Shown here piece after piece: positions 33,401 through 43,623 of a stretch of 64,000 nucleotides of DNA. Each line of letters starts with the position of its first letter. Position 1 is the first letter of the stretch. A program made the translations under genes and the position numbers. Location of the stretch: positions 1 to 64,000 of the forward strand of contig JACRDA010000030.1 of assembly GCA_016212965.1 (NCBI GenBank), in the 5' to 3' direction. The DNA comes from Myxococcales bacterium. GTDB lineage: Bacteria; Myxococcota_A; Polyangia; Polyangiales; Polyangiaceae. Below the pieces are notes generated by a model that was not told the DNA's origin, did not search any database, and worked only from the letters and a program-made list of their open reading frames with translations.

Positions 33401-34251
33401 ACACCGAGGCTGTCCCGGCCGTTGTTGCCCTCCGCGACGGAGTCGTTGGCCTCGCCCGTCCCGTGCCCGTAGCGGGTGTCGTCGTACGGGTCGTTGTCGT
33501 CCTTCATGAAGTCCCAGCCGGAGATGTCGTCGACGTAGCCGTTCGCGTCGTCGTCGATGCCGTCCGAGAACTGGTGGATGAGGTCGCCCGCGTCGAGCAC
33601 GCCGTTCTGATCGACGTCGCCCGCCGGGTTGGTCCCCGCCGGCGGCTGCAGCGTGGGCGTCTCGGCGTAGTCCGACACCGAGAAGATGCCGTCCCCGTTG
33701 CAGTCGAGGCCCGTGAGCTCGGCCGTGCCGCCGCAGGCCGAGCTGTCGGCGTGGGTCGGCATGTGGGTCGCCATCTCGCCAGGGTTCAGCCAGGCGCGAT
33801 CGATGAGGTCACGGTCGTCCCACTTGATGCCCGAGTCGGTGATCGCGATGCGCACCGAGTCCTCGCCGATGCTCCAGCGCCACGCGAGATCGACCGACAT
33901 GCCGGACGCGGTCTCGTCGGGCCGGAGCACGAGGTTGCCGGACTGCGGCGGCACGAACGAGAAGTACTGCCACATCCCGTTGTGCCAGTTGCCGTTCTGG
34001 TCCTCGCCGAAGCCGTAGCTCGGATCGCTCGGCCAGTTCGACGGGTCCATCATGTCGTCCGCGGTGGCGCTCTCGGGCGGCGGCCAGACGGCGCGGCTGT
34101 CCCCGGCGGCGAACAGGGCAGCGAGCCCTCCGAGCACCGCGACCACCACGGCCGCGCGGCGCCGCGCCTCGGGTGCGGCGCCTCGGGGCGCGCGGGTGCG
34201 AAGACAGGTGGTGGGGTGCGGGGCGCGTGGGCTGGAAGGGTGGAGCGTCAT
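30469..34251 (-). CDS. S8 (subtilisin)-like serine protease with FG-GAP/VCBS-like repeats and MYXO-CTERM-like tail
   Basis: ITDSGIKW (Asp), RYGHGTGEA (His), CSSEATGRLSGAAGLL (Ser region); repeated DxDGDGxxD; C-terminus GGGCNCTLTGAREPSPAWPAALAALTALGAAAGRRSASRRRR. Confidence 0.85.
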   Translation of the reverse strand: MTLHPSSPRAPHPTTCLRTRAPRGAAPEARRRAAVVVAVLGGLAALFAAGDSRAVWPPPESATADDMMDPSNWPSDPSYGFGEDQNGNWHNGMWQYFSFVPPQSGNLVLRPDETASGMSVDLAWRWSIGEDSVRIAITDSGIKWDDRDLIDRAWLNPGEMATHMPTHADSSACGGTAELTGLDCNGDGIFSVSDYAETPTLQPPAGTNPAGDVDQNGVLDAGDLIHQFSDGIDDDANGYVDDISGWDFMKDDNDPYDDTRYGHGTGEANDSVAEGNNGRDSLGVCPRCRFIAMRVGDSFIADVNAFAESVVYATDTGAKVIQCALGTINMNRFAQAALDYAYAHGVLAVTSMADENARHHNMPVTANHTLPVHAVVYAPGNKTNNVETFLSFNTCTNFGGQNLLSASGSGCSSEATGRLSGAAGLLFSRAIGQGLNPPLTPAEAQQVWFTTADDIDVPESRQPDSKYYWSQPGFDQRFGYGRINVNSALTAVKDHKIPPEVDIVRPYWFEVLYRDQVSDAVPIQGTIAAKRAGSYDYTVEWAPGVQPLDADFQTITSQSNVPATVVSGGADPLALLDIRTISTEHTPDPDSPHGENASAITVRVRAVAHYGSPAGDVPGEMRRTYYVHEDPDLVKGFPIYVGDSGESSPKLADIDGDGVRDIVYATGGGLIHVLRVTPTGPEPLAGFPFHAEPVDGLRTAPPTPSTPSYRGSAAYVSGAVDPDAAGEAFSATPAIADLDGDGTPEIVATTYTGTTYVVGHDGVVLAGWPKRLPEVPSCPRDGSVPTGPCTDTHHITARGAFASPVIEDMDGDGDYDIVQAAFDGSVYVWDAAGNDLPGWPVALHYTGPLGGTEPDYARVFTTPAVGDFTGDGKPEVLVGSNETLSEAGQAGAVYLLDGRGTAAGPEPWLPNWPVTMTSLNLFPVIAEGVPNSGVMGTFEGTLAAVAHGNASLPLIMPADPGHQALLGSNPPNILPERFDEASGETKRGVASSSQFGPLSKAFRPNTMLPLFSQPSLGDVDQDGTLDVVASGGSLNLAINLQTGSTQSALPGEHLVTVWSGRTGLMLPAAPFILEDFSFFNSQTIADLDGDDYPEVIQGSGGYFLHAWNGCGTEPAGWPKFTGQWIIPTAAVGDLDGDDKLEIVTGTRSGWLYAWHTNGRSDGVVAWESYHHDNRNTGNADTPLEQGDPARLAPTPLTTELCTALAAPPADLALGGGCNCTLTGAREPSPAWPAALAALTALGAAAGRRSASRRRRATRRA

Positions 34252-34432
34252 CTTGGTCTTCCGGGTAGGCGCAAAGGTGTCCCCCCTGTGCGCGACGTTA
34301 TCATCACCGCGGGTCGCCTTCGCGCCTGATCGCCGCGAAGCGACACGGGCCCACGGGCTCGGGACCTGGCGCCGTCCGGTCGGCGTTGGGGTGCTGGCGG
34401 CACGCGGGGCTCCAGGGCATGCTGCTGCGCCC

Positions 34433-35842
34433 ATGGCCAAAGTGGCGCCGCCGGGCCCGGCCGCCGCGCTCTTGCGGCGCATTCCCAAGGTCGACGACCT
34501 GCTCGGGCGCGCCGAGCTCGCGCCCGCCGTGGGTCGCCTGGGGCGCGCGCGCGTGACGGCGCTCGTGCGGCACGAGCTCGCCGCGGTGCGGCGCGAGGCG
34601 CAGGTCGGCCGCGAGCCGCCCGACCCGGCGGCGCTCGCGGAGCGCGTGGTCGAGGCCGCGCGCGCCCTGCTCGCCTCGCGGGTGCGGCGCGTCATCAACG
34701 CGACGGGCGTCGTGCTGCACACGAACCTCGGGCGCGCGCCGCTCTCGGGGCGCGCCGTGGCCGCGCTCGCGGCGACGAGCGGCGCCTACGGGTCGGTCGA
34801 GCTCGACGTCGCGACCGGCAGGCGGGGCGTGCGGGCCGCGTTCGCCGAGCGCGCGCTCGCGTCGCTCGTGGGTGCGGAGGACGCCCTCGTCGTCAACAAC
34901 AACGCCGGGGCGGTGCTGCTCGTGCTCGCGGCGCTCGCGGCGGGCCGGCCGGTGCTGGTGTCGCGCGGCGAGCTCGTCGAGATCGGCGGCGGCTTCCGGG
35001 TGCCGGAGGTCCTCGCCTGCTCGGGCGCACGGCTCCGCGAGGTCGGCACCACGAACCGGACCCGCCTCGGCGACTATGCGGAGGCCCTCGCGCACGAGCC
35101 CGACTGCGCGCTCATCCTGCGCGTGCACCCCGGCAACTTCCGGCAGACGGGCTTCGTCGAGCGGCCCACGCTCCCGGAGCTCGCCGCGCTGGCGGCTCGC
35201 CACGGCGCCTGGCTCGTGAAGGACCTGGGGGGCGGAGCTTTGTTCGATCCCGCGCGCCACGACCTCCCCGGCGAGCCCACCGTGCAGTCGGCCGTGGCGC
35301 GCGGCGCACACCTCGTGTGCTTCTCGACCGACAAGCTCCTCGGTGGGCCGCAAGGTGGCGCGATCGTCGGGCGGGCCGAGCTCGTGGCGCGCGCTCGCCG
35401 CCATCCCCTGGCGCGCGCGCTGCGCCTCGGGCGCCTTGCGCTGGTGGCCCTCGAGGCCACGCTCGACAGCTACCTGTCGGGCGACCTCGCGGAGCTGCCC
35501 GTGTTCGCGGCCCTGACGGCGCCGCTAGCCGCGGTGCGGGCGCGGGTCGAGCGCTGGGTGGCAGCGCTCGCCGGGCAGGCCGTCGCGGCGCGGGTCGTCG
35601 CGGTCGAGGGCGCCACGGGGGGGGGGGCGCTCGCCGAGATGCCGCTCGCCTCGTTCGCCGCCGAGCTCCGGGGCGACGACGTCGAGGCGCTGGCGGCCCG
35701 GCTGCGCGCCGGCGAGCCGCCGGTGCTCGGGCGCATCCACGAGGGTGCCCTGCTGCTCGACGGGCGCAGCGTGCTCGCCGCCGACGACGACGCGCTCGTC
35801 GCGGCGGTGGTGCGCGCTTCGCGGCCCGACGCGCCGGGGTGA
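34433..35842 (+). CDS. selA: L-seryl-tRNA(Sec) selenium transferase
   Basis: RRVINATGVVLHTNLGRAPLS, VVNNNAGAVLL, SRGELVEIGGGFRVPEV, VGTTNRT, CFSTDKLLGGPQGGAIVGR. Confidence 0.95.
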   Translation: MAKVAPPGPAAALLRRIPKVDDLLGRAELAPAVGRLGRARVTALVRHELAAVRREAQVGREPPDPAALAERVVEAARALLASRVRRVINATGVVLHTNLGRAPLSGRAVAALAATSGAYGSVELDVATGRRGVRAAFAERALASLVGAEDALVVNNNAGAVLLVLAALAAGRPVLVSRGELVEIGGGFRVPEVLACSGARLREVGTTNRTRLGDYAEALAHEPDCALILRVHPGNFRQTGFVERPTLPELAALAARHGAWLVKDLGGGALFDPARHDLPGEPTVQSAVARGAHLVCFSTDKLLGGPQGGAIVGRAELVARARRHPLARALRLGRLALVALEATLDSYLSGDLAELPVFAALTAPLAAVRARVERWVAALAGQAVAARVVAVEGATGGGALAEMPLASFAAELRGDDVEALAARLRAGEPPVLGRIHEGALLLDGRSVLAADDDALVAAVVRASRPDAPG

Positions 35843-35926: not shown

Positions 35927-37333
35927 TCAGAGCTCGAGCGTGTCCCGCGACTTCGGGATCGCGGGGGCGGCGAAGCCCTTCTCTTCCAGCAGCGCGCCGA
36001 GGATCTTCTGCGGCTTCGGGTCGCCGTGGACGAGCGCGATGCGCTCCACCGGACCGCGCGCGCGGCACTGGTCGGCGAAGTTCACGAGGTCGCGCTGGTC
36101 GGCGTGGGCCGAGAAGCCGTTCAGGACCACCACCTCGGCGCGCCGCTCGCGCTCGACGCCGAAGATCTTGACCCGGTCGCGGTTCTCGACCAGCCGGCGC
36201 CCCAGCGTGTGCTGCGCCTGGTAGCCCACGATGAGCACCGTGTTGCGCGCGTCCTCGACGCAGGCCTTCAGATGGTGCAGCACGCGCCCGGCCTCGCACA
36301 TGCCGCTCGCGGCGATGATCACGGCGGGGTCGCTGCTGGTGCTGACCTCCTTGCTGTCCTCCACGCTGTCGATGTACTCGAGCGCTCCGAACTCGAAGGG
36401 CGAGTTGCCATGGGAGATGAGCCCCAGCGTCTCCTCGTCGTAGCACTCGGGGTGGAGCTTGAAGACGTCGGTGATCTTCACCGTGAGCGGGGAGTCCACG
36501 TACACCTTGAGCAGGCGCGGCAGCCGGCCCTGCATCTCGAGCTGCTTCAGGGCGAACACGACCTCTTGGGCCCGCTCGAGCGCGAAGGACGGGATGATGA
36601 CCTTGCCGCCGCGGTCGTAGGTGCGCTTGATGACCGCCGCGAGGTCGTCCTCCATCTTGTGGATGTCGTCGTGCAGGCGGTCGCCGTAGGTGCTCTCCGT
36701 CACGAGCACGTCGACCCCGTCCGGAACGTCCGGGTCCTCGAGGATCGGCATGTTGAGCCGGCCGAGATCGCCGGTGAAGGCCAGGCGCTTCTTGCGGCCG
36801 TCCTCCTCGAGATCGAGCAGCGTGATGGCGCTGCCGAGCACGTGCCCGGCGTCGAGGAAGGTGAACGAGGTGTGCGGCGACAGCCAGGTGCGAAAGCCGT
36901 AGGGCACCGAGTGGAACAGCCCGATCGACCGGAGGGCGTCCTTCTCGACGTAGAGTGGCGGGAGCGGAGCGACATCGATGCGCTCCTTGCGCGCCTGGCG
37001 CGTGAGGTAGTCCGCGTCCGCCTCCTGGATGCGCGCCGAGTCGAGCAGCATCACGGCCGCGAGGTCGCGCGTCGCCGGCGTGGCGTAGATCGGGCCCTCG
37101 TACCCGTTCTTGACGAGCATCGGGATGGCGCCGGAGTGATCGATGTGCGCATGCGACAGGATGACGGCGGTGATCTCGCCGACCGGCACGCCGAGCGTGC
37201 TGTTGCGCTCGTAGGACTCGCGCCGGTGGCCCTGGTAGAGCCCGCAGTCGAGCAGCACCGTGTCGTGCTTGGTGCGCACGATGTGCATCGAACCGGTCAC
37301 GGTCTGCGTGGCGCCGATGAACTGGATGTGCAT
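35927..37333 (-). CDS. MBL-fold/beta-CASP RNA-processing exonuclease family protein
   Basis: ILSHAHIDHSGAIP, FTGDLGR, VTESTYGDR, IIAASGMCEAGRVLHHL, LNGFSAHADQRDL. Confidence 0.92.
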   Translation of the reverse strand: MHIQFIGATQTVTGSMHIVRTKHDTVLLDCGLYQGHRRESYERNSTLGVPVGEITAVILSHAHIDHSGAIPMLVKNGYEGPIYATPATRDLAAVMLLDSARIQEADADYLTRQARKERIDVAPLPPLYVEKDALRSIGLFHSVPYGFRTWLSPHTSFTFLDAGHVLGSAITLLDLEEDGRKKRLAFTGDLGRLNMPILEDPDVPDGVDVLVTESTYGDRLHDDIHKMEDDLAAVIKRTYDRGGKVIIPSFALERAQEVVFALKQLEMQGRLPRLLKVYVDSPLTVKITDVFKLHPECYDEETLGLISHGNSPFEFGALEYIDSVEDSKEVSTSSDPAVIIAASGMCEAGRVLHHLKACVEDARNTVLIVGYQAQHTLGRRLVENRDRVKIFGVERERRAEVVVLNGFSAHADQRDLVNFADQCRARGPVERIALVHGDPKPQKILGALLEEKGFAAPAIPKSRDTLEL

Positions 37334-37528
37334 GCCGGGAACATAGGCGCCAACGTCGGGCCCGCCAATGGGTCGATCGGGTCGGGCTCCGGCGGTAGGG
37401 TTCTTTTCTCCCGCGCTGCGTGCGGGGCGCCCGCCGGGGTCCGGTGCGCCCGAGCGGATCGCCAGTTGTTGCGGGCTCGGGCGCCGGGTCGGGCATAATC
37501 GCCTCGCCATGTCGCGCCGCGCTGCAGG

Positions 37529-39964
37529 TTGCCGAGGGGTCCGTTGACCGAGCTCCTTCTCATCGGCTCGCTGCTTGGGCTCGCGGCCGCGGTCGCGCTC
37601 GCCGTGGCGCGCGCCCAGCGGCGCCGGCTGCCCCGGGACCCGGTCCTCGAGCGCACCGCTCTGCTCGTCGCGAAGGCCGCGCGCCGCCACCTGCGGCGGC
37701 AGATGCTGGTCGTCACCGCGATCGCCGCGGCGCTCGGAGCGGTCCTGTTCCTGCTCTACGGCGTCGCCTACCAGACGACCTCCGTCGGCGCGGAGGCGGG
37801 CCCGGACGTCGTCGGCGTGCCGGGCCCGCGCGCTCACGGCGCGTGGATGCTCGCGGCCTACGCGCTCGGGGTCGGCTGTGCGCTGCTCGTGGGGCACCTC
37901 TCCGCGGTGATCGGCACCCGCGCGACGCTGCGGGTCGCCGAGGGTGCGCGCCGCTCGCTCGACGAGCCGCTGGAGCTGGGCGTGCGCGCGGGAGCCGTCG
38001 CCGGCGCGGTGGCGGGGGTGCTCGCCGTCGGCGGCCTCGCGCTCCTGTTTCTCGCCCACTACCTCTTCGCGGGACGCTGCGGCGCCGACACGGCGCGCGC
38101 GCTCGCCGCGACGCCGGCCATCCCGGTGCTGGCGGTCGGGTTCGGGCTCGGAGCCGCGCTCGTCGCCTTCCTCGGCCTGCTCGGCGGCGGTCTTTTCGGC
38201 AAGGTCGCCGACCTCGGCGCGGACGTGGCCGGCAAGCTCGAGGCGAATCTACCCGCGGACTCGGCTCAGAACCCGGGCACCGTAGCCGACCTCGCGGGCG
38301 ACCTCGTCCACGACACCGCGAGCCGTGCCACCGCCATGTTCGCGTGCAACGCCGTCGAGCTGCTCGGCGCGATGGCCGTGGCGGCCGACCTCTACCGCGG
38401 CAACCGCGATCTCCCGAGCCCGACGGCGCTGGTGCTGTTTCCGCTCGTCGCTCGGTCCTTCGGCATCCTCGCGAGCTGGTTCGGCGCGATGGTGGTGCGC
38501 ACGGACGACCGCGAGGTGCCCATGAACGCGTTGGCGCGCGGCCTCCTCATCGCCCTCTTGCTGTACGCGGCGGCCGTGAGCGGCTGCGCCAAGTGGCTGC
38601 TCGGCGAGCACTGGCTGCGCTTCGCGCTCTGCGCCGTCCTCGGAGCCGGGGCCGCGCTCCTCTGCCTCGTGTCGGTGCACTACCACAGCGCAGACCGCTA
38701 CGCGCCCGTGCGCTCCCTCGCCGAGGCGGCGCGCGGCGGTGCCATGCTGTCGGCCCTGCGCGGCCTCGGGGGCGCGCTGCAGGGCGCCGTCGTGCTCGGC
38801 GCGGTGCTCGGGGGCGCGGCCTTCGGCGCGCTGCGCATCGGGACCTCGACCGGGCTCGAGGGCGGTGGTGCCTTCGGCTTGGCGCTCGCGCTCGTCGGGC
38901 TGCTCGGTGCAGCACCCTACGTGCTCGGCATGGCGGTCATGGGCAGCGTGGTCGACGCCGGCGGCGGCCTCGTCGAGATGAACGTGGCCGAGCACCGGCC
39001 CGACCTGCGGGCACGCGCGGCCGTGCTCGACTCGGTGGGCAACACCGCGAAGGCCTACGCATCCGTGCTCGCGAGCGCGGGCTTCGCTCTCGGCGGCGTG
39101 CTCCTCGTCCAGAGCCTGACGCAGGCGGCTCGCCTGCGAGACGCGGCCGCCACCGCCGTACCACCCCCGGCGAGCTACGCCGCCGCGTTCGCGGCCGTCG
39201 GGGTCGTCACCTGCTTCGTCTGGGCGACGCTCGGCCGCACCGTCCAGGCCAGTCGTGAGCTCATCTACGATCTGCGCCGCGAGCTCGCCAGCCGCGCTGC
39301 CGAGGGGCTCGAGGCGCGGGTGCCCGTCGACCCATTGCACCCGGACCGCGATACCCCCTCGCCGGTCGGGGCGCGCGCCACCGCGTCCGGTGGCGACGAG
39401 CTGCGCGGGGTCGGGCTGGCGGATCCGGCGAGCGCAGCACGCGCCGACGCGCCGCGCGTCCCGGGAGCCACGGGCGCGGTCGGCGCGGGCGGTGCGCACC
39501 GCGACGAGCTCGTCTGCGCGGAGATGGTCTCGCGCCTCGCGCTGCGCGGCCTGCTGCCGCCCGCGGCCCTCGGGCTCGGCCTGCCGCTCGCGCTGCTCGT
39601 CGTGCTGCGGCTCGCGGGGCGCGGCAGCCCCGGCGTGACGGTCGGCGCCGTGGCCACCTTCCTCGTGGTCGCCACGGCTCTCGCGGCGGGGCTCGCGGTC
39701 GTCTTCGCGAGCTTCGGCTGCGCGCTCGACAACGCCAAGCGCTACATCGAGACCGGCGCGCACGGGGGCCGGTTCCTCGTGGAGCCCGCCATGGTCGCGG
39801 ACCGCCCGGGCGCGCGGCGCAACGTGAACAACCCGGCCTACGTCGCAGCCGCCGTCGCGGACGCCATCGGCGATCCCTTGAAGGGGCTGGTGGGTCCTGC
39901 GCTCTCGGCGCTCGCCGCGCTGCTCTGTTGCCTCGCGCTCGTGGTCCTGCCGCTGCTCGTGTGA
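37529..39964 (+). CDS. Divergent membrane-bound pyrophosphatase (H+-PPase)-like protein
   Basis: KVADLGADVAGKLEANLPADSAQNPGTVADLAGDLVHD and CALDNAKRYIETG...ADAIGDPLKGLVGPALS align with mPPase motifs; many TM segments. Confidence 0.75.
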   Translation: MPRGPLTELLLIGSLLGLAAAVALAVARAQRRRLPRDPVLERTALLVAKAARRHLRRQMLVVTAIAAALGAVLFLLYGVAYQTTSVGAEAGPDVVGVPGPRAHGAWMLAAYALGVGCALLVGHLSAVIGTRATLRVAEGARRSLDEPLELGVRAGAVAGAVAGVLAVGGLALLFLAHYLFAGRCGADTARALAATPAIPVLAVGFGLGAALVAFLGLLGGGLFGKVADLGADVAGKLEANLPADSAQNPGTVADLAGDLVHDTASRATAMFACNAVELLGAMAVAADLYRGNRDLPSPTALVLFPLVARSFGILASWFGAMVVRTDDREVPMNALARGLLIALLLYAAAVSGCAKWLLGEHWLRFALCAVLGAGAALLCLVSVHYHSADRYAPVRSLAEAARGGAMLSALRGLGGALQGAVVLGAVLGGAAFGALRIGTSTGLEGGGAFGLALALVGLLGAAPYVLGMAVMGSVVDAGGGLVEMNVAEHRPDLRARAAVLDSVGNTAKAYASVLASAGFALGGVLLVQSLTQAARLRDAAATAVPPPASYAAAFAAVGVVTCFVWATLGRTVQASRELIYDLRRELASRAAEGLEARVPVDPLHPDRDTPSPVGARATASGGDELRGVGLADPASAARADAPRVPGATGAVGAGGAHRDELVCAEMVSRLALRGLLPPAALGLGLPLALLVVLRLAGRGSPGVTVGAVATFLVVATALAAGLAVVFASFGCALDNAKRYIETGAHGGRFLVEPAMVADRPGARRNVNNPAYVAAAVADAIGDPLKGLVGPALSALAALLCCLALVVLPLLV

Positions 39965-40335
39965 AACCGCACCTGGGCACCGAAACCGGTCTCGGCGCTC
40001 GCCCGTCTTGCGTCACGGCACCTCTCGCGATAGGGTGAGCATGCCATCGCGGCGTGAGCGGCCCTCTACGCGACCGCTCGCGCCCGTGCTCTGGCAGCCC
40101 ATCTCACAACGCCGGTCGCGCGTGGACCACGCGCAGACGCACAGCGAGCCGGGGGACCTCACGGTCGCCCATGCCTCGAGGCCTCGAGCCCGTTGGCAAT
40201 CACCGATCGTGCGAGGATCGACGGCAACACCCGAGCGCAGTGTTGCCGCGCGCAGCCTCGCCGGTCGGCCGCCCGGACCGGGCCGCTCGGTGCGTCAGCG
40301 CGGGCCCCGCGTCGACCCAGCCCCCATCAGCCAAC

Positions 40336-43300
40336 GTGCCTGCACCCATTTCCGATGCTCTCGCAACCCTGAGCGACCGCGGCCTTCGGCGCCTGCTCGG
40401 AGCGCGTACTTTCCTGCGCGGTCTCGAGTACTTCCGCCGACGTGTCGTCGACGAGGTCCGCGTGAGCGGCAACCACGCCGTCGGCACGGTGCGCGCGAGC
40501 GACAGCGAGCCCTTCACCGTCGCGGTGGAGCTCACGCCCGACGGGATCCAGTCGAACTGCAGCTGCCCGGTCTTCGGCAAGAGCCACCAGCACTGCAAGC
40601 ACGTGGCGGCGCTGCTCATCAGCGTGCGCGACCAGGCGCGGGGCGACCCCGCCCGCGTCACCCCGCCGCCGCCCGCGCCCGCGCCCGCCACCGCCCACGC
40701 GGGCGGCGAGAGCAAGCGCGCGCGCCGGCGCCGGGCCCGCCTCACGGCCTCGGTCCAGGGTGGCACGGTGGTGTCCCATCACGCGGTGGCCGCGGACGAC
40801 GCCGCCGCCGGTGCGACCGGCATCTCGGCGTGGCTCGCGCCGAAGGGCGTCACGGTCCACCACCCCATCGAGCTGCGCGTGCACGTGCGCCAGGGTGCCA
40901 TCACCGTGACGGCGCTCGACGCGGACGCCCGCGTGGCGGTGCTGCCGAGCGTCGCGCTGAGCTGGCAGGGTCACGAGCCGACGCCCGACCGCGACGCCTT
41001 GCGCCTGCTGGCGCGCTTCGAGAGTGGCAACCCTCGCCACCCCGCGGTCGACGTGCGCGGCGAGGACGTGGCCGAGCTCTTGCCGCTCTTGCGCGGGCGG
41101 CGGGTGCTGCTCGAGCCGGCGTTGAAGCAGCTGCGCTTCTCGGAGGACGTGCTGCGACCGTGCTTCGAGCTCGAGATGCTCGGCAGCGACACCATCATCG
41201 TCAAGGCGTGTTTCGAGCGCGACGCCGACGGCCGCCGTTTCTCGCTGCTGCAAGGTGGGTGGTACGAGGGCTGGCCATGCTGGCACATCGACACCCAGGA
41301 CGGCATCGCGCGCGAGATCGACAAGCGCATGTCGCCCGCCGCGATGAAGCGCCTGATGAAGTCGCCCACGATCGCCGAGCCCGTGGGCGAGCTCGGCGTG
41401 GTGATCATGCAGGGACTGCCCCGCGTGGCGCTCGAGTGCGGCGCGGAGCTGCCCGATCTCTCCCAGATCGCCGACGTGGTCGACATGCACCCCACGATCC
41501 GCATGCGCGCCGGCGGCTCCTTGATGGAGGCCGAGGTGTCGCTCTTCGCCGCCTACGGCGACGAGGAGCTGGCGGTGCGCGCCGACGGCATCACCCCGCC
41601 GGTCCTGGTGCGCCCGCCGGCGGAGGGCAGCCGGCGCGCGCGCTGCATCCGCGTCGACATCCCGGCGCAGCAGGGAGCGGTATCGCGGCTCCTCGGGCAG
41701 GGGCTCAAGCCGGACCCGACGGGTGCGCGCTTCGTCGCCACGGGCGACGCCGCGCTCAAGTTCTGGACCGAAGGGCTGGCCGAGCTGCCCGAGGACTGGG
41801 ACCTGTTCGTGCCCGAGCACCTGGTCGACACCCAGGTGCGCGGCACGCCGATCACGGCCCAGGCGCGTGTCAGCTCCGGCATGGACTGGTTGACCGTCAA
41901 GCTGGCGTTCGGCGCCGACGGCGTGGCCGTCGACCGCGAGGAGCTCCGGCGCTGCCTGCAGCAGGGCAAGAAGTACGTGCGCCTCGAGGACGGCTCCTTC
42001 GCGCCCTTCGACGCCGCCAAGGTGCAGGCCATGCTCGATCGCGAGATCGAGCTGCTCACCGCGGCGGGCAAGGACGGCAAGCTCCCCCTGAGCCACGCCG
42101 GGCGCATCCACGAGCTCTTGCAGCACGTCGACGCCTCGACGGTCTCGTCCAAGGCCAGGAACCTCTTCGAGCAGCTCGCGAACCTGTCGGGCATCGAGAA
42201 GGCCGTCAAGCCGCGGGCGCTCAAGGCCAAGCTCCGCCCCTACCAGGAGGACGCGCTCTCGTGGCTGCTCTTCATCCACGAGCTGCGCAGCGGCGGCGTG
42301 CTCGCCGACGACATGGGGCTCGGCAAGACGGTCGAGACCCTCGCGCTCCTGCTCGCGGTCAAGCAGCGCCAGAAGAAGGTGCGCGTCCTCATCGTCGCGC
42401 CGACCAGCGTCGTCTTCAACTGGCAGCGCGAGATCGAGCGCTTCGCGCCGAGCCTCGGGGTCGCGGTGTGGCACGGCGCCGAGCGCAAGGAGCTCGAGCA
42501 GGAGCTCGAGCACGCCGAGATCATCATCACGAGCTACGCCCTGCTGCGGCGGGACATCGAGCTGCTCGCCACGCTCGAGCTCGACTACGCGGTCCTCGAC
42601 GAGGCGCAGCACATCAAGAACCCCGCGAGCGCCACCGCCGGGGCCGCCAAGCGGCTGCGCGCCGCGCGCCGGCTCGCGCTCACCGGCACGCCCATCGAGA
42701 ACCGGCTGAGCGAGATCTGGTCGATCTTCGACTTCGTGTCGCCCGGTCTGCTCGGGCCGCTCGACCGCTTCGAGGCACGTTTCAGCCGCAAGATCGAGGC
42801 GGGGGACTACAAGACGGCGCAGCGCCTGCGCGCCATCATTCACCCGTTCATCCTGCGCCGCACCAAGCTCGAGGTGGCCAAGGACCTGCCCGAGAAGATC
42901 GAGATGGACAGCCTGTGCGAGCTCGCCGGCGAGCAGCGCGCGCTCTACCTGCAGGTGGCGCGCGAGGTCCGGGCCCAGGTGCTCGGCGAGGTGGAGCGCA
43001 ACGGCGTCGCCAAGAGCCAGCTGCAGATCCTGGCGGGGCTCACCAAGCTGCGCCAGGCGGCCTGCGATCCTCGGCTCCTCGGGCTGCCGCGCGAGTTCGG
43101 AGACGAGGACTCGGGCAAGCTCATCGCGCTCCGCGAGCTCTTGCAGAACGCCGTCGACGGCGGACACAAGGTGCTCGTCTTCAGCCAGTTCGTCACGATG
43201 CTGAAGCTCGTCGAGCGCGCCCTGAAGCAGGACGGCATCGTGTACGAGTACCTCGACGGCTCGACCAAGGACCGGCCCGAGCGCATCGAGCGCTTCCAGC

Positions 43301-43623
43301 AGGATCCGTCGGTGAGCGCCTTCCTCATCAGCCTGAAGGCGGGCGGCACGGGCCTCAACCTCACGGCCGCGGACACGGTCATCCACTTCGACCCGTGGTG
43401 GAACCCGGCCGTCGAGCAGCAGGCCACCGACCGGGCCCACCGCATCGGCCAGACGCGGGTCGTGAGCGTGTACCGGCTCGTCGCGGCCGGGACCATCGAG
43501 GAGAAGATCCTCGCCCTCAAGGACAAGAAGCGCGCCCTGGTCGCCTCGGTGCTGAGCGAGGATGCCGGCGGCGCCAAGAAGCTCACGCAGCAGGACGTCG
43601 AGGAGCTCTTCACGGTCGACTGA
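40336..43623 (+). CDS. SWIM zinc-finger / SNF2-family helicase
   Basis: CSCPVFGKSHQHCKHVAA (SWIM); DDMGLGKTVETLAL, DEAQHIKNP, LTGTPIENRLSEIWSIFDF, ATDRAHRIGQTRVVSVYRLV. Confidence 0.93.
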   Translation: MPAPISDALATLSDRGLRRLLGARTFLRGLEYFRRRVVDEVRVSGNHAVGTVRASDSEPFTVAVELTPDGIQSNCSCPVFGKSHQHCKHVAALLISVRDQARGDPARVTPPPPAPAPATAHAGGESKRARRRRARLTASVQGGTVVSHHAVAADDAAAGATGISAWLAPKGVTVHHPIELRVHVRQGAITVTALDADARVAVLPSVALSWQGHEPTPDRDALRLLARFESGNPRHPAVDVRGEDVAELLPLLRGRRVLLEPALKQLRFSEDVLRPCFELEMLGSDTIIVKACFERDADGRRFSLLQGGWYEGWPCWHIDTQDGIAREIDKRMSPAAMKRLMKSPTIAEPVGELGVVIMQGLPRVALECGAELPDLSQIADVVDMHPTIRMRAGGSLMEAEVSLFAAYGDEELAVRADGITPPVLVRPPAEGSRRARCIRVDIPAQQGAVSRLLGQGLKPDPTGARFVATGDAALKFWTEGLAELPEDWDLFVPEHLVDTQVRGTPITAQARVSSGMDWLTVKLAFGADGVAVDREELRRCLQQGKKYVRLEDGSFAPFDAAKVQAMLDREIELLTAAGKDGKLPLSHAGRIHELLQHVDASTVSSKARNLFEQLANLSGIEKAVKPRALKAKLRPYQEDALSWLLFIHELRSGGVLADDMGLGKTVETLALLLAVKQRQKKVRVLIVAPTSVVFNWQREIERFAPSLGVAVWHGAERKELEQELEHAEIIITSYALLRRDIELLATLELDYAVLDEAQHIKNPASATAGAAKRLRAARRLALTGTPIENRLSEIWSIFDFVSPGLLGPLDRFEARFSRKIEAGDYKTAQRLRAIIHPFILRRTKLEVAKDLPEKIEMDSLCELAGEQRALYLQVAREVRAQVLGEVERNGVAKSQLQILAGLTKLRQAACDPRLLGLPREFGDEDSGKLIALRELLQNAVDGGHKVLVFSQFVTMLKLVERALKQDGIVYEYLDGSTKDRPERIERFQQDPSVSAFLISLKAGGTGLNLTAADTVIHFDPWWNPAVEQQATDRAHRIGQTRVVSVYRLVAAGTIEEKILALKDKKRALVASVLSEDAGGAKKLTQQDVEELFTVD

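Follow-up and report, generated by a model that had tools for sequence, protein, structure and literature searches.

Membrane pyrophosphatases (mPPases) attract study as examples of a minimal ion pump, and their catalytic residues are regarded as close to universal. The window, by which we mean the whole 64,000-nucleotide stretch of Myxococcales DNA analysed here, contains a gene of this family whose catalytic motifs have been rewritten. The question raised by the locus is whether its product still hydrolyses PPi, still pumps ions, or does neither and serves some other purpose.

The open reading frame at 37529-39964 (+) comprises 811 codons without a stop. Homologues start with MTEL, and a GAGGGG box is found just 5' of the TTG at 37544, which makes this TTG the likelier start; the gene then probably occupies 37544..39964 (+) and encodes 806 amino acids beginning MTELL. 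As the first-pass annotation had recognised, the protein is an H+-PPase homologue: it matches Pfam H_PPase (PF03030) over its full length (E 8.5e-92), and it has the DxGADxxGK and DNAKxYIE motifs in common with canonical mPPases. The match to the solved mPPase structures (VrPPase/TmPPase) has E about 4e-39, and the best score against the NCBIfam equivalog model of translocating PPase is 384 bits, below its cut-off of 783. A sequencing or frame artefact is excluded by the closest relative (91% identity), whose differences from the window gene are codon-structured. The short intergenic stretch upstream (37334..37543, unstranded) is probably the gene's promoter region, and separates it from a divergent gene for a beta-CASP metallo-beta-lactamase nuclease (35927-37333, -), a homologue of which occupies the same place in locus L007.

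We number residues as in VrPPase, by structure alignment, and take their roles from PMC6882861. The window protein keeps 14 of the 16 residues of the hydrolytic centre, and the two losses, E268A and D731G, fall within the motifs that the first-pass annotation had quoted as rewritten, all three of which are present in the reading frame. In the first, PADSAQN replaces PEDDPRN (38252..38272, +), so that E268A, D270S and R272Q stand beside a conserved D269 and N273; the E268 site, now Ala, belongs to loop 5-6, the loop that covers the substrate on closing. In the second, DLAGDLVHDTASR replaces DNVGDNVGD..GM (38288..38326, +): D279, D283 and D287 are kept, N280 and N284 have become Leu, and G286 has become His. 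In the third, ADAIGDPLKGLVGPA replaces GDTVGDPFKDTSGPS (39857..39901, +), with D723, D727 and K730 kept and the water-activating D731 (16.39) replaced by Gly. D731 and D287 (6.43) jointly activate the nucleophilic water (PMC5150537, PMC5336470); of this pair D287 is present and D731 is not. The earlier statement that several acidic and Asn ligands are lost was thus right for E268, D731, N280 and N284, and too broad for the direct acidic ligands, most of which are kept (D253, D257, D269, D279, D283, D287, D507, D691, D723 and D727). In VrPPase we also take N534 to be a metal ligand. The alignments contain no replacement ligands at shifted positions near the lost sites, where the sole nearby acid is Glu 302.

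Loss is more complete in the ion-coupling path than at the hydrolytic site. K12.50, D6.50 and K16.50 have roles in coupling and in the gate (PMC5150537, PMC5336470, PMC6882861). None of the five coupling and gate residues is kept in the window protein: the codon for R242 (5.50, coupling/ionic gate; 38177..38179, +) encodes Leu, those for D294 (6.50, ionic gate; 38333..38335, +) and D500 (11.50, coupling funnel; 38933..38935, +) encode Ala, that for K541 (12.50, coupling funnel; 39062..39064, +, where the alignment could be off by a few residues) encodes Ser, and that for K742 (16.50, ionic gate; 39917..39919, +) encodes Ala. Judging from these substitutions, pumping has very probably been lost. 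PPi hydrolysis has likely been lost as well, given D731G plus E268A; the earlier proposal of lost or changed hydrolysis therefore stands as a likelihood, tempered by the 14 hydrolytic residues that remain.

The window genome has another, intact mPPase. A canonical hppA lies on a different contig (G000:C418) with 16/16 hydrolytic and 5/5 coupling residues, which bears out the earlier suggestion that the window gene is a paralogue. No soluble family I pyrophosphatase that might serve as a replacement was found in the window genome (86% complete). More widely, a canonical query found a match in 40 of 43 genomes, which were picked mainly for having a copy linked to a helicase gene (see below), and some of these matches are incomplete or fall on the linked copies themselves.

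In spite of the lost residues, the fold is predicted to be retained, as the first-pass annotation had supposed for the topology. The AlphaFold model of the window protein (pLDDT 87.9, pTM 0.89) is still an mPPase fold, and its top 36 Foldseek matches are all mPPases, with a TM-score of about 0.84 on the target. Even for a related protein with 1 of the 16 hydrolytic residues, the model has a pTM of 0.92 and the best Foldseek match is an mPPase (E 3e-21), with the caveat that the input alignment for this model includes better-conserved relatives. The window protein therefore resembles canonical mPPases (HppA; 4A01, 6QXA, 8B37) in full-length homology, in predicted fold and in most hydrolytic residues, and differs from them in lacking D731, E268 and the entire coupling and gate set.

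The window protein is not alone in this condition. We searched 184 genomes of the order, many of them fragmented drafts and several of the named records being metagenome assemblies, and collected their mPPase loci. At 49 loci, in 49 genomes, an mPPase-like gene directly precedes, on the same strand, a gene for a helicase with a SWIM zinc finger and an SNF2 domain; in the window, this downstream partner occupies 40336..43623 (+), with a possible in-frame upstream start at 40054. The gap to the conserved helicase start has a median of about 49 bp and is at most 100 bp at 41 of the 49 loci. In the window it is about 347 bp, so an operon is not certain there. The linked copies form one side of a single branch in a 67-sequence tree (39 rows, support 100/99), and the phylogenetic check that the annotation had proposed thus places the window protein in a distinct, SNF2-linked clade. 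In these searches the clade is confined to the window's own family, the nearest named record being Polyangiaceae. In a sample drawn evenly from the phylum, hits beyond the order, compared by score, reached at most 149 bits. One sequence labelled unlinked in the tree (L043, from G019) probably belongs with the linked copies: the gene runs off the end of its contig, and another contig of the same genome (C430) holds a matching C-terminal fragment followed by the helicase. If the two pieces are joined, this gene has 16/16 hydrolytic residues and R242Q.

Within the clade, loss is graded. Linked copies keep from 1 to 16 of the 16 hydrolytic residues and from 0 to 3 of the 5 coupling residues. Among full-length unlinked copies of the order the counts are 16/16 and 4-5 of 5, with two exceptions, and in the tree the unlinked rows keep every hydrolytic residue where letters exist, one of them having G at 269. 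Each hydrolytic residue requires 2-9 changes on the tree (D731 two), nearly all of them in linked rows. The two exceptions, L049 (2397-4496, +) and L099 (5014-7176, -), come from another family, keep 0-1 of the 16 residues and have no SNF2 gene nearby; perhaps they represent a pseudoenzyme lineage that arose independently. Slightly more than 1 kb upstream of the gene in L049 there is a C-terminal mPPase fragment that looks intact.

The nearest relatives outside the linked clade are sister mPPases of the same order (L044, L083, L118, L119 and L121). They share R242Q with most linked copies; unlike the linked clade, however, they keep 16/16 hydrolytic and 4/5 coupling residues, and no SNF2 gene adjoins them within the flanking DNA examined. 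Because the least eroded linked copies (L041 and L116, and that of G019 if joined across its two contigs) also keep 16/16 hydrolytic residues, the pairing with the helicase predates catalytic loss.

These comparisons bear on the possibility that the window protein is an active pyrophosphatase that has become uncoupled, hydrolysing PPi at the membrane without pumping by means of its 14 remaining residues. Several linked relatives do keep 15-16 of 16 hydrolytic residues though their gate residues are lost. We nonetheless consider this unlikely, since the window protein lacks both D731, needed for water activation, and E268 of loop 5-6, since an intact mPPase is already present in the genome, and since fewer than 9 of the 16 residues survive in many members of the clade; for this last reason, hydrolysis cannot be the clade's shared function.

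At the far end of the gradient, the linked copies are eroded beyond ready recognition. Four of the 30 further genomes that we searched for the helicase contain eroded linked copies (L155-L158), two of which (L155, 5024-7138, +; L157, 4990-6957, +) have no Pfam match and were recognised by the clade profile and their position at the same locus. One linked copy (L007) is frameshifted, and in G008 the mPPase gene is apparently missing between ExbD and the helicase gene, which is kept; the helicase therefore does not strictly need the mPPase-derived gene.

It is natural to ask, then, whether the gene is a functionless, redundant copy that is decaying slowly and is carried along by conserved gene order. 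The apparent complete loss in G008 and the frameshift in L007 are what such decay would produce, and columns that were once invariant survive at about the same low rate whether they are functional or hydrophobic. Between the window gene and its 91% relative, dN/dS is 0.19 (NG86) or 0.085 (YN00), and 151 of the 240 base differences fall at third codon positions, from which it follows that the mPPase-derived gene is real and under selection. For the same two genomes, the canonical copy gives 0.096 (NG86) and 0.022 (YN00) and the helicase 0.044 (NG86) and 0.011 (YN00); that the window ratio exceeds both counts against the retirement reading proposed below. In more eroded pairs the ratio rises to 0.2-0.45, as decay would predict, with dS near-saturated, which would make these ratios upper bounds. 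Against decay, dN/dS is below 1 in every pair, frames are open in nearly all 49 loci despite the near-saturated dS, the third-position bias of the window pair is that of a constrained gene, and the same helicase neighbour is found clade-wide. Moreover, R337 and W356 (ORF numbering), in predicted TM helix 8 (38537..38596, +), have a weighted frequency of 1.00 in SNF2-linked copies and were near-invariant there in a second analysis also, whereas the same columns are not conserved in canonical copies; being fixed in the one and variable in the other, they are a sign of new constraint. Gradual decay without function thus seems improbable to us.

We favour, at a probability of roughly 60%, the reading that the window gene is a catalytically retired mPPase, that is, a pseudoenzyme that has kept its fold and probably acts with the adjacent helicase. 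We infer the following order of events. An mPPase copy that by then carried R242Q would have landed, in an ancestor of the family, between an ExbB-ExbD-ExbD cluster and the SWIM-SNF2 gene. Coupling, gate and hydrolytic residues would then have been lost repeatedly in separate branches, without loss of the 16-helix fold, the reading frame or the helicase partner. The window protein would now perform neither ion pumping nor useful PPi turnover, and Mg-PPi binding may persist; its remaining role would most likely be that of a non-catalytic membrane partner, an anchor or regulatory subunit, of the adjacent helicase's product. A physical or regulatory link to the helicase is a hypothesis suggested by the fixed gene pairing. 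Besides the dN/dS comparison, three points count against the favoured reading: the 16/16 hydrolytic residues of the least eroded linked copies, the retained helicase of G008, and the wide gap between the two genes in the window. The stronger version, in which a primary ion pump has turned into a non-catalytic membrane subunit for tethering or regulating a SWIM-SNF2 DNA translocase, as a family-specific membrane-helicase module, we put forward only tentatively.

If Mg-PPi is still bound, the protein could alternatively be a membrane PPi sensor that signals nucleic-acid synthesis to the helicase and leaves the PPi unhydrolysed. Such a role would suit a protein that keeps most Mg-PPi ligands and has lost one water-activating Asp and the pump path, next to a helicase that, by family, acts on nucleic acid. 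Strongly eroded members with 1-4 of the 16 ligands have the same gene arrangement, however; PPi binding is therefore not general to the clade, and we regard a sensor as doubtful, more so than either uncoupled hydrolysis or decay.

The neighbourhood suggests one further comparison. In many relatives, divergent ExbB-ExbD-ExbD clusters adjoin the mPPase-SNF2 pair; at L039-L048 and other loci they form a divergent pair of clusters (two ExbB and four ExbD genes) that is conserved in the family, in a layout that seems to us to resemble the gliding motor genes AglRQS. An ExbB/ExbD-type channel joined to an SNF2 protein recalls Zorya-like motor-plus-helicase systems, used for example in phage defence, and the helicase scores 264 bits against the ZorD model. 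That score falls below the ZorD cut-off of 1500 bits. The helicase or a homologue is present in all 30 of the further genomes, most of them having at first no obvious linked copy, which is unlike the patchy distribution of defence genes; other families of the order that we examined have the helicase without an mPPase beside it. Nor is the Exb cluster adjacent in several relatives or in the window, where profiles built from the relatives' genes found no ExbB or ExbD match; in the window genome the cluster lies on another contig (C462), and the mPPase and SNF2 genes remain adjacent. A Zorya-like system is accordingly the least credible of these readings, and very improbable.

The retired-enzyme reading, by contrast, has parallels among pseudoenzymes such as pseudokinases, which the window protein resembles in its kept fold, its lost catalytic residues and the active paralogue elsewhere; it differs from them in that the parent of the linked clade is a primary ion pump. 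The linked clade also differs from canonical mPPases in its conserved R337 and W356 and its fixed pairing with an SNF2 helicase gene. A literature search turned up no description of an inactive mPPase family, and the SNF2-linked clade is without earlier description in the literature searched. The first-pass annotation, written from this one gene, had missed the complete loss of coupling, the graded loss across the clade and the tie to the downstream SWIM-SNF2 gene. That naturally occurring copies range from intact to fully eroded suggests that the fold can persist without pumping or catalysis, and the linked copies offer natural variants for separating hydrolysis from pumping. Many of them are probably misannotated as 'sodium-translocating pyrophosphatase', and their fixed SNF2 pairing points to a putative link between membrane and helicase.

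Several minor observations concern related loci. Of the 30 further genomes searched, G018 has the closest helicase (72%). There, the ExbB-ExbD-ExbD cluster and the SNF2 gene are separated by an mPPase gene of canonical type on the opposite strand (L153, 3279-5783, -), which is related to the hppA of the window genome. In G031, the intact R242Q mPPase is followed by a gene for a small protein with two CBS domains (L044, 10665-11087, +). Finally, the window itself contains a selenocysteine synthase gene, SelA (34202-35842, +; Pfam E 7.5e-111), which suggests selenoprotein synthesis.
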